From Bacteroidota bacterium (GTDB lineage Bacteria > Bacteroidota > Bacteroidia > UKL13-3), in assembly GCA_947453415.1 (NCBI GenBank), contig CANGGG010000022.1, positions 1 through 41,816 on the forward strand: a stretch of 41,816 nucleotides of DNA, read 5' to 3'. The translations under genes were made by a program, and so were the position numbers. This document shows positions 7,430 to 11,201 of the stretch, in pieces; the first letter of the stretch is position 1, and each line of letters begins with the position of its first letter. A model generated the notes under the pieces. That model was not told where the DNA came from and did not search any database. It saw nothing but the letters and a program-made list of their open reading frames with translations.

Positions 7430-8269
7430 ATGAAAAAAGAATATATTAATGCTTTATTTGATAAATTTGAAGAAGCGTGTTACGATTACAAAGGAATAGA
7501 ATGTTGGAGTGCAAGAGAACTTCAAGAAATTCTTGGATATGCACAATGGAGAAATTTTGAAAAAGTAATTGAAAAAGCTAAAAAATCTTGTGAACAAGCT
7601 TTAGAAATAGTAAAGAACCATTTTGCTGATATCAGCAAAATGGTCGAAATTGGTAGTGGCGCAAAAAAAGAAATACAAGATATAGCGCTTACGAGATATG
7701 CTTGTTATTTGATTGCACAAAATGGAGATGCTACAACCAAATCTGAAATTGCATTTGCTCAAACCTATTTTGCTGTTCAAACAAGAAAACAAGAAATTAT
7801 TGAAAAACGATTGTTAGATGTGGCAAGGGTTAATGCTCGTGAAAAACTATCGCAATCAGAAAAGAAGTTATCAGGAATTATTTTTGAAAGAGGCATTGAT
7901 AATAAAAGCTTTGCGTTCATTCGTTCTAAAGGTGATGAAGCTTTGTTTGGGGGAAGAACTACAAACGATATGAAAAGAATTTTGAAAGTTCCTGATAGTC
8001 GTCCATTAGCCGATTTCTTGCCAACATTAACCATAAAAGCAAAAGATTTTGCAACAGAACTTACAAGTCATAATGTTATAGATAAAGATTTACAAGGAGA
8101 CAACTTAATAACCAAAGAACACGTAGAAAATAATTTGGCTGTAAGAAAGATGTTACAGGATAGAGGTGTAAAACCAGAGCAACTTCCACCAGCCGAAGAT
8201 GTGAAAAAAGTAGAGCGAAGATTAGAAAGTGAAGAAAAAAAAATATTAAAAGATTTGAAAAAAAAGTAA
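7430..8269 (+). CDS. dinD: DinD-like DNA-damage-inducible protein
   Basis: Resembles E. coli DinD, an SOS-induced protein reported to inhibit RecA-mediated strand exchange. The N-terminus (residues 1-95) carries the BRO/DinD-type segment CWSARELQEILGYAQWRNFEKV; the middle has EIQDIALTRYACYLIAQNGD and the helical QTYFAVQTRKQE; the C-terminal half contains SFAFIRSKGDEALFGG and a Lys/Glu-rich tail. The 279 residues agree with DinD. It follows cphA after 45 bases on the same strand but is functionally unrelated. No LexA-like operator was recognised. DinD genes are patchily distributed, often alongside restriction or mobile functions, so transfer is plausible; the decayed gene downstream also marks this as a changeable spot. 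Confidence 0.85.
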   Translation: MKKEYINALFDKFEEACYDYKGIECWSARELQEILGYAQWRNFEKVIEKAKKSCEQALEIVKNHFADISKMVEIGSGAKKEIQDIALTRYACYLIAQNGDATTKSEIAFAQTYFAVQTRKQEIIEKRLLDVARVNAREKLSQSEKKLSGIIFERGIDNKSFAFIRSKGDEALFGGRTTNDMKRILKVPDSRPLADFLPTLTIKAKDFATELTSHNVIDKDLQGDNLITKEHVENNLAVRKMLQDRGVKPEQLPPAEDVKKVERRLESEEKKILKDLKKK

Positions 8270-8764: not shown

Positions 8765-8986
8765 ATGTATTGGACACTAGAACTTGCTTCATATTTAGAC
8801 GATGCGCCATGGCCAGCCACAAAAGATGAATTAATTGATTACGGAATTAGAAGTGGTGCGCCACTAGAAGTAATTGAAAATTTACAAGAAATAGAAGATG
8901 ACGGAGAGCCTTTTGAAGGTATTGAAGAAATTTGGCCTGATTACCCTACTAAAGAAGATTATTTTTACAACGAAGATGAGTTGTAA
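8765..8986 (+). CDS. DUF2795 domain protein
   Basis: A 73-residue, very acidic protein of unknown function, with conserved-looking features MYWTLELASYLDDAPWPATK, LIDYGIRSGAPLEVIENLQE and an acidic C-terminus ending in FYNEDEL. Proteins of this size and pattern are near-universal in Bacteroidota and carry a DUF2795 label. It has a promoter of its own and a strong terminator immediately after, so it is monocistronic; such isolated, highly conserved small genes are often well expressed. No catalytic motif is visible. Confidence 0.85.
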   Translation: MYWTLELASYLDDAPWPATKDELIDYGIRSGAPLEVIENLQEIEDDGEPFEGIEEIWPDYPTKEDYFYNEDEL

Positions 8987-9041: not shown

Positions 9042-10217
9042 TTATTCGTAACCAAGAATTACTTGTTCATCACTGTTTTTTAAGTATTCCGATTGGTACT
9101 GATTTATTGGATCTTGTTTGTAATTATCTAAGTTTAGAGAATACTTTAAAGCACTTCCCATTCCTATTATCTTCACCAAATTTAGCTCCAACAAATGCAC
9201 AAAATCGCGCTGAATAGTTTTGCGGTTACATTCAAACTCACTTACTAATTCTTTGGTACTTACAAAGCCTCTATGTTGAATAATATACATGATTAACTTT
9301 TGGCGTTTGTTTAAAATTGAATCATCAATTTCTTTCAATTTGTATCCGCTTTGGAACACAAAATTCATGATATTTTTTTGACGGGGATTTAGTTTTTCGT
9401 AATCAATTTGCTTACGGAAATAAGATTGTAATAACTGGTACATGCGTGTTAATTGATTGGCATGTAACGACAATCCAAAAGCAATTTGTTCGTTTAAACT
9501 TTGTTCTTGAACTGGTGATTCTGTATTTTTATTTTCAAGAAAATATGCTAAATATTCATTTTTCTTAATATATAATTCGTGTTCTAAACTTAACAAACCA
9601 TTTAAATCCATATTGTGTTTTCTTAACCAAAAACTTTGCAATAGTGAGGCAAATTTGTTTTTAGCTTCAGCAAACATTGGTAATGAAAGGATTTTAAAAT
9701 GCAACATCCAACTTTGAATAATAGGATGAAATTCAGTATCACTGTTTAAAAATTCAAATAAATTTTCTAACTCAAGTTCCGATTCTGGATGCAATCTTTC
9801 TGGTTGTGAAAACGATTTATTATCAAATAAATTTGATTCTGATGATTGAAGCAATAAATCAGTAACTAATATTTTATGTAAATGATAAACCATTGAAATA
9901 GTCAATGGTTGATTGATATTATCAAATAAATATTTTTCAGCTTTGTAAAATTGGTAAATAGCCGATTCCGCAGCGCCCGATGGACGAATATTTCTGCTTA
10001 TTATATATTTTACAGTTTTTATTTCTAATAAATTATGATCAATTGCATTGGCATAATAATTACGCAAAATAGAGCTGTTCAACTTTTCAGTTTCAACAAT
10101 TGCTTCAGGCAAATCAATAAAGTCAAATATTTTTTTCAACTCTTCATATTGATGTTGGTATTGTACAAATGCCTCATCAATGCTAATTGCTGCTTCGTAT
10201 TTATTTATCAGTATCAT
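9042..10217 (-). CDS. Fic-fold protein lacking the catalytic motif, fused to a winged helix
   Basis: Active Fic enzymes transfer AMP or other phosphate groups using HPFx[DE]GN[GK]R. Here the surrounding Fic landmarks are present: HPIIQSWMLHFKIL (164-177), then SLLQSFWL, GLLSLEHEL and the NEYLAYF helix. The motif itself reads LPMFAEAKNKFA (179-190): the catalytic His is Leu, and the Gly-Asn-Gly-Arg anion site is lost. The usual N-terminal inhibitory-helix pattern SSxIEG reads SSILRN, with Arg in place of Glu. Residues about 276-362 form a helix-turn-helix region (KELVSEFECNRKTIQRDFVHL, a DeoR-like winged helix). I infer a DNA-binding regulator that reuses the Fic fold for ligand or protein sensing. 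The ATG at 10217 is used; a perfect 11-bp inverted repeat lies about 100 bases upstream. Confidence 0.75.
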   Translation of the reverse strand: MILINKYEAAISIDEAFVQYQHQYEELKKIFDFIDLPEAIVETEKLNSSILRNYYANAIDHNLLEIKTVKYIISRNIRPSGAAESAIYQFYKAEKYLFDNINQPLTISMVYHLHKILVTDLLLQSSESNLFDNKSFSQPERLHPESELELENLFEFLNSDTEFHPIIQSWMLHFKILSLPMFAEAKNKFASLLQSFWLRKHNMDLNGLLSLEHELYIKKNEYLAYFLENKNTESPVQEQSLNEQIAFGLSLHANQLTRMYQLLQSYFRKQIDYEKLNPRQKNIMNFVFQSGYKLKEIDDSILNKRQKLIMYIIQHRGFVSTKELVSEFECNRKTIQRDFVHLLELNLVKIIGMGSALKYSLNLDNYKQDPINQYQSEYLKNSDEQVILGYE

Positions 10218-10305
10218 TCCTACGAATATATAGCACTGATTTTCTCTTAAAAATGCAGTTGCAACCTCTTATGGTGGATAAACCTTGTTTTAAATTTAAA
10301 TGATT

Positions 10306-10344
10306 AAAAAAAACAACTAAATCCTTTGCCAATAAAGGATTTAG
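10306..10344 (-). terminator. Perfect 11-bp hairpin with T-tract on the minus strand
   Basis: CTAAATCCTTT (10317-10327) and AAAGGATTTAG (10334-10344) are exact inverted repeats with a 6-base loop. Read on the minus strand the stem is followed by TTGTTTTTTTT, the form of an intrinsic terminator. No minus-strand gene lies immediately upstream, so it may stop antisense read-through from cca, end a small RNA, or be an operator for the regulator gene at 9042-10217. Confidence 0.65.
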
Positions 10345-10496
10345 CAAATCATATCAAAATAGACATTTAGATTTTATACTGTGAATAATGAAATTAATTG
10401 CGACATTCAAACACAATTAATGAATAAATTTAACTCTTTTATCTTCGTATATAAAATATAATATTGCATTTTTATTTTATATAAATAATCCAACTT

Positions 10497-11201
10497 ATGA
10501 ATAATAATATTGAATCAGTTTTTACTGAAATTGGTGGTGTTTTTTTATCCAATGCAGAACAAATTAATATAAAGCTAAAAGGCATCAAAGCCTTTGTTTT
10601 TGATTGGGATGGCGTATTTAATAATGCAGCAAAAAACGAAAACAAAAGTTCTACTTTTAATGAAGCAGATAGCATGGGAACAAACTTGCTTCGATTCAAT
10701 TATTTTTTACATAACAATAAAATGCCTGCTTGCGCCATTATTTCTGGCGAAAAAAATGAAATGGCTTTTTACTTTTGTAACCGTGAACATTTTTCTGATT
10801 CCTATTATAAAGTATCCGATAAAATTATTGCGCTTGAGCATTTTTGCAAAGCAAATAATATCAATAAAAATGAAGTTTGCTATATGTTTGACGATGTGTT
10901 AGACTTAAGCATTGCAAAGGTTTGCGGCATTCGAATTTTGATTAACAGAAAAGCAAATCCTTTGTTTAAAAACTATGTTATTAATAATAATTTAGCCGAT
11001 TATATCACAGCTCATGAAAGCGGAAATTTTGCTGTTCGTGAGGCTTGTGAAATGCTAATTGGATTAACTGGAACTTATAATGAAGTGATGGAACACCGAA
11101 CTAGTTTTAGCCCAATATACAAAGATTATATTACCCAACGACAAGCAGCACCAACTAATTTCTTTACAGTTGAAAACAATGAAATAGTTGATGGTTTATA
11201 G
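10497..11201 (+). CDS. KdsC-like HAD-superfamily phosphatase
   Basis: HAD phosphatase of the small-cap KdsC (3-deoxy-manno-octulosonate 8-phosphatase) type. Seen: nucleophile motif FDWDGVF with Asp36 and Asp38, motif II AIISGEKNE with a Ser, the motif III Lys in SDKIIALEHF, and motif IV FDDVLDL (the family usually has GDD; here Gly is Phe). The C-terminal SGNFAVREACEML matches the KdsC GGxGAVRE region. All catalytic groups are present, so it is probably active, but 234 residues is longer than classic KdsC (about 170-190), and no other KDO gene is nearby. The substrate is open: KDO-8-P, another sugar phosphate, or a nucleotide. Its TAG stop lies inside a palindromic repeat. Confidence 0.82.
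   Translation: MNNNIESVFTEIGGVFLSNAEQINIKLKGIKAFVFDWDGVFNNAAKNENKSSTFNEADSMGTNLLRFNYFLHNNKMPACAIISGEKNEMAFYFCNREHFSDSYYKVSDKIIALEHFCKANNINKNEVCYMFDDVLDLSIAKVCGIRILINRKANPLFKNYVINNNLADYITAHESGNFAVREACEMLIGLTGTYNEVMEHRTSFSPIYKDYITQRQAAPTNFFTVENNEIVDGL

Follow-up and report, generated by a model that had tools for sequence, protein, structure and literature searches.

A Fic-fold protein of Bacteroidota that lacks the catalytic motif and carries a conserved C-terminal winged helix: a predicted DNA-binding regulator

What is the function of a protein that has the fold of a Fic enzyme, lacks the catalytic motif of that enzyme, and ends in a winged helix? The question is raised by an open reading frame at positions 9042..10217 of the reverse strand (391 aa; coordinates include the stop codon) in the 41.8-kb stretch of freshwater Bacteroidota DNA that we analysed, referred to here as the window. 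Fic proteins have been studied almost solely as enzymes, and dead members have been treated as exceptions; some Fic and Doc clades without motif residues may be inactive (PMC4454073). A preliminary description of the locus had read this gene as a Fic fold turned regulator of its own DNA-binding domain, and as a candidate for a new regulator class.

The place of the protein among the Fics is visible only in certain kinds of comparison. Searched as a single sequence, it has no Fic match in Pfam up to an E value of 10, its sole matches there being winged-helix families; NCBIfam yields nothing past the HTH, and the PDB no match. A divergent member of the family, L034, also falls short of the Pfam PF02661 gathering score (16.8 bits against a cut-off of 24). 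Members that are invisible to single-sequence Pfam in this way are probably annotated merely as HTH proteins. The 391-aa sequence alone does retrieve active Fics with an intact HPFxDGNGR motif from the genomes of relatives (E 2.7e-9 to 1e-4), and hhalign matches a 29-member family profile to nine active Fics over 275 columns (99.7%, E 9e-27). When the same family profile is searched against the PDB, Fic structures dominate, with FICD best (E 5.7e-5), SoFic next (7.9e-5), and BT_2513 matched weakly. All of the Fic-domain flanks singled out in the preliminary description are found in the reading frame and align with true Fics: HPIIQSWMLHFKIL with the helix before the loop, LPMFAEAKNKFA with the HPFxDGNGR loop, SLLQSFWL with the helix after the loop, and NEYLAYF with the conserved-Tyr helix. 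Judged by these alignments, the protein belongs to the Fic/Fido fold superfamily, with a kinship well above chance.

Structure prediction is consistent with this assignment. An AlphaFold (AF2) model computed from nine close orthologues reached a pLDDT of 43 and was set aside; a better alignment, consisting of the family and 36 active Fics from viral contigs, raised the pLDDT to 71, and to 80–94 in most of the Fic part (we found no relatives of the dead family in viral contigs). The resulting model superimposes on SoFic over 244 residues (Z 23.4, 3.3 A), and its top Foldseek match is CbFic2 (8cil; E 1e-7). Since active Fics contributed to its alignment, the model is consistent with the sequence comparisons without being an independent proof of the fold. 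Together with the profile matches to PDB structures at E values of about 1e-4, it nonetheless bears out the Fic fold that had been proposed, and alignment, hhalign, model, and structure comparison place the Fic core helices at aa 144-228 (9534..9788, reverse strand).

At the place that HPFxDGNGR occupies in active Fics, the protein reads PMFAEAKNK (P180 to K188; 9654..9680, reverse strand), that is, with His replaced by Pro, Asp by Glu, Asn by Lys, and Arg by Lys, and with the Phe retained. The preliminary description was thus right that the motif had been replaced, and the replacement is a property of the whole clade: HPFx[D/E]GN[G/K]R with its catalytic His is absent from this protein and from every other member (29 of 29 lack the His). 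Orthologues with an intact His motif, which the preliminary description had named as grounds for refuting it, were thus not found in the clade. The inhibitory motif of class II Fics, [ST]xxxE[GN], has likewise given way to ANAIDH (aa 56-61; 10035-10052, reverse strand), which lies in the former inhibitory helix (aa 47-66; 10020..10079, reverse strand), both located by alignment with active Fics. Here we depart from the preliminary description, which had taken SSILRN (aa 48-53; 10059..10076, reverse strand) as the counterpart of this motif; in the alignment SSILRN is about nine residues out of register, and the position of ANAIDH is settled by the divergent members L033-L035, which carry ATALEG or STALEG there. 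Only divergent members, L034 for example, still have the motif itself. L033-L035 also retain an Arg at position 191, the second Arg of GNGRxxR, and the core family is without this Arg and, with one exception, without the inhibitory Glu as well. On sequence, this joint absence would look like the paired loss of the inhibitory Glu-Arg bridge. In L034 (2289-3437, reverse strand) and L035 (1964-3109, forward strand), NGRxxR and STALEG are kept and Gly replaces the His, the loops reading GPWGMANGR and GPWGQANGR, respectively; by their sequences, these two are apparent intermediates in the loss of catalysis.

Orthologues of the gene are present in 52 of the 58 genomes of the source genome's family, mostly in single copy, and with its more distant members the clade extends to three other families of the class, four families in all. 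In a maximum-likelihood tree computed with the loop columns left out, the 29 His-less proteins are separated from 22 active Fics on one branch (support 98/92); the tree is unrooted and contains long branches (L062, L064, L067, and L078), and a single loss of the His motif is the simplest reading of these sequences rather than a proven event. It might be supposed that we are looking at a Fic enzyme on its way to becoming a pseudogene, given a motif loss that appears graded (GPWGMANGR in L034, KPFGSDAPI in L031, and PMFAEAKNK in the source protein). However, reading frames are intact in nearly all genomes, and what the family records is a single ancient split and long conservation thereafter. 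Close orthologues compared with one another give a dN/dS of 0.04-0.06 for the whole gene and of 0.03-0.07 for its Fic core, and the gene is therefore not decaying; we give decay next to no chance, and the conservation data rule it out.

We also noted that active Fics are encoded by separate genes in the genomes of some relatives. A dead fold shared with active Fics could, in such genomes, act as an antitoxin-like partner that dimerises with them or titrates their targets. Against this stands the source genome, in which a profile search of the whole genome finds no PF02661 match and the gene is still intact, and in none of the loci read does a Fic gene lie beside the dead-Fic gene; we regard a partner role as very improbable.

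If not catalysis, what has selection maintained? The C-terminal part of the protein is a DeoR/HTH_11-type winged helix (aa 303-362; 9132..9311, reverse strand; placed by Pfam and the model), as had been proposed from the letters of the DNA: over aa 305-351, HTH_11 scores 26.9 bits (cut-off 25) and HTH_DeoR 25.4 bits (cut-off 21). This is the most conserved part of the protein, and its recognition-helix segment, CNRKTIQRDF (aa 330-339), is invariant among the 24 core members. Conservation in those members is 0.62 for the loop, 0.62 for the Fic core, and 0.82 for the winged helix, as against 0.87, 0.69, and 0.44, respectively, in six active Fics (mean identity 59%). By this measure of sequence, the constraint has moved from the active site to the winged helix relative to active Fics. 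Within the N-terminal 275 aa, conservation over 20 residues peaks at aa 52-71, the segment with the former inhibitory helix; there Y54, Y55, N57, A58, and N62 are invariant in all 24 core members, and D60 is found in 21 of them. Regulators of the DeoR group have an N-terminal HTH followed by a sugar-phosphate-binding domain. The likeness of our protein to them lies in the winged helix and its Pfam scores, whereas the domain order differs, with the Fic fold first and the HTH at its C-terminal side.

The same alignment leaves some room for a Fido enzyme that has been repurposed, one that has lost AMPylation but carries out another reaction through an F-x-E-x-K-x-K/R loop while the winged helix localises or regulates it. 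F182 and E184 are invariant in the 24 core members (as is A190), position 188 is K or R in every one of them, and K186 is present in 21; moreover, the Fido protein AvrB, whose motif is divergent as well, proved to be a rhamnosyltransferase (PMC10866546). On the other side, the loop is no more conserved than the Fic core around it, unlike in active Fics, E184 and K186 do not extend to the divergent members, and the target-docking flap has been shortened by about 11 aa relative to active Fics in the alignment, with no strands in that region of the AF2 model. Since the loop shows no special conservation and is not the same in the divergent members, we hold a repurposed enzyme to be less likely than a regulator, and quite unlikely in itself. 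Our preferred reading, and one that we consider probable from the sequences compared, is that the gene encodes a predicted DNA-binding regulator, vertically inherited and built on a Fic (Fido) scaffold whose AMP-transferase chemistry was lost long ago. At the level of sequence comparison, four elements of this reading are in hand: Fic kinship, the clade-wide disappearance of the catalytic residues, purifying selection, and the strongest constraint on the winged helix.

The DNA upstream of the gene contains a candidate operator, TTATTCACA-N14-TGTCTATTTT, that starts at -171 from the ATG (10356..10388, reverse strand), as well as a second conserved box, TTATCCACC (10273..10281, reverse strand). 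In relatives the positions of both are fixed (TTATTMACA-N14-TGTCTATTTT at -171 to -177, and ATCCAC at -62 to -66), with about 110 bp between TTATTMACA and ATCCAC and unconserved sequence between the boxes (10273-10388 of the window, reverse strand). The boxes persist although the upstream neighbour gene varies between genera, and a variant of the element is retained in L036, which belongs to another family. The box pair is found in 28 of 38 upstream regions, compared with a mean of 0.07 in shuffled sequences, a contrast that carries no probability because the sequences are related. Across 58 genomes, with at most one mismatch allowed, 14 of 15 matches to the element lie upstream of the dead-Fic gene, and the reversed control gives one. 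We describe the element as a conserved, gene-specific, imperfect inverted repeat. A search for a regulon in the source genome finds one perfect copy of the element, with weaker matches no more frequent than those of the reversed-pattern control; that only this good copy exists, and that no regulon is seen, counts against the regulator.

The upstream boxes also resemble DnaA boxes (TTATNCACA), and hence the protein that binds them need not be the one encoded by the gene. They could instead be DnaA boxes proper, making the gene a replication-linked DnaA target that does not control itself, even if its product still regulated something else. In keeping with such DnaA-linked control, the 41.8-kb window has a single TTATTCACA and a single TTATCCAC, and both lie in the intergenic region upstream of the dead-Fic gene, and divergent members have TTATNCACA words at about -70. 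However, neither TTATTAACA, the most frequent variant, nor the TGTCTATTTT box matches a DnaA box, and in a one-contig relative (400 kb densely read) neither a skew minimum nor a cluster of DnaA boxes marks an origin near the gene; we therefore rejected a replication origin at the element and consider DnaA-linked control unlikely.

Closer to the start codon, TATATTCG stands just before the ATG (10223..10230, reverse strand) and is kept in relatives as TAnnTT[TC]G. The -7 promoter box of Bacteroidota is TAnnTTTG, which TATATTCG looks like, and the transcript may hence be leaderless. Rfam finds nothing above the gathering score in the region. A terminator-like hairpin with a T run lies at 10317-10344 of the window (reverse strand), inside the divergent intergenic region on the upstream side of the gene; we considered it as a conserved RNA structure and set it aside, as it is strong in some members and missing in others.

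Several features of the neighbourhood may be recorded here. A DUF2795 gene (8765..8986, forward strand; 73 aa; PF11387, E 3.4e-17) is adjacent and convergent to the dead-Fic gene, an arrangement that recurs in 26 of 37 loci (L036, from another family, among them), and its product is nearly identical across genera whose remaining genes differ. At 7430-8269 (forward strand), between a cyanophycin-synthetase-like gene and the DUF2795 gene, the window has a Bro-N gene (PF02498, E 4.1e-9) that L052, a close relative, lacks at this position. A 234-aa reading frame at 10497-11201 (forward strand) has a HAD-like DWDGVF motif and is KdsC-like by eye, with no Pfam match at E 0.01. The window contains no tRNA genes.

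Among characterized proteins, a close parallel is CccR of Yersinia pseudotuberculosis, a dimeric repressor of its own promoter whose DNA binding is separable from AMPylation (PMC9755527). Both proteins have an N-terminal Fic fold and a C-terminal HTH; CccR, however, is secreted, retains an active FIC motif, and AMPylates FtsZ, and its operator, AGATAATCAT-N26-ATGATAATCT, differs from the dead-Fic upstream element. Our protein may work like CccR as a regulator, yet lacking an active FIC motif it is not to be classed with it. CbFic2 of Coxiella burnetii, a DNA-binding protein that both AMPylates and deAMPylates (PMC10628234), is likewise a class II Fic with a C-terminal DeoR-type winged helix, but it has HPFDDGNGR and TSAIEG, both of which are lost here. 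SoFic (3eqx/3zec) and other class II Fic–winged-helix proteins have the fold and domain order in common with our protein; SoFic differs in that its motif is intact and it works as an AMP-transferase. AvrB may be set beside it by description as a Fido fold without the canonical motif, but has an inserted domain and no winged helix, and is a glycosyltransferase (PMC2686095, PMC10866546). Of the preliminary description's central proposal, then, the idea of a fold turned regulator with a DNA-binding domain gains from the shift of conservation to the winged helix and from purifying selection, whereas "new regulator class" is too strong, since the literature already contains Fic proteins with winged helices that function as transcription factors or DNA binders (CccR, PMC9755527; CbFic2, PMC10628234). 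The architecture is familiar; the new part is the conserved, His-less clade dominated by its winged helix, no description of which was found in the literature searched (a search whose coverage excluded most subscription journals).

How might such a protein act? We envisage a dimer whose DeoR-type winged helix would bind a defined operator, with the old pocket and the former inhibitory helix serving as a structural or ligand-responsive unit that would position the winged helix, and with the conserved upstream element as the site through which the protein would control its own promoter. Autoregulation through that element, for which CccR offers a precedent in a Fic-HTH protein (PMC9755527), seems to us a fair possibility that stops a little short of being probable. 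More doubtful, and offered as a tentative proposal, is the fuller scheme in which the dead Fic site is a ligand-sensing pocket and the ex-inhibitory helix relays its signal to the DeoR-type winged helix and thence to the protein's own operator, making this an undescribed one-component regulator of Bacteroidota. If the regulator reading is true, the family would show clearly how an enzyme fold can become a regulator, in a core-genome gene whose constraint has shifted to its DNA-binding domain, and it would pose a new and testable question: what the pocket and inhibitory helix of a class II Fic are for once there is nothing left to inhibit.
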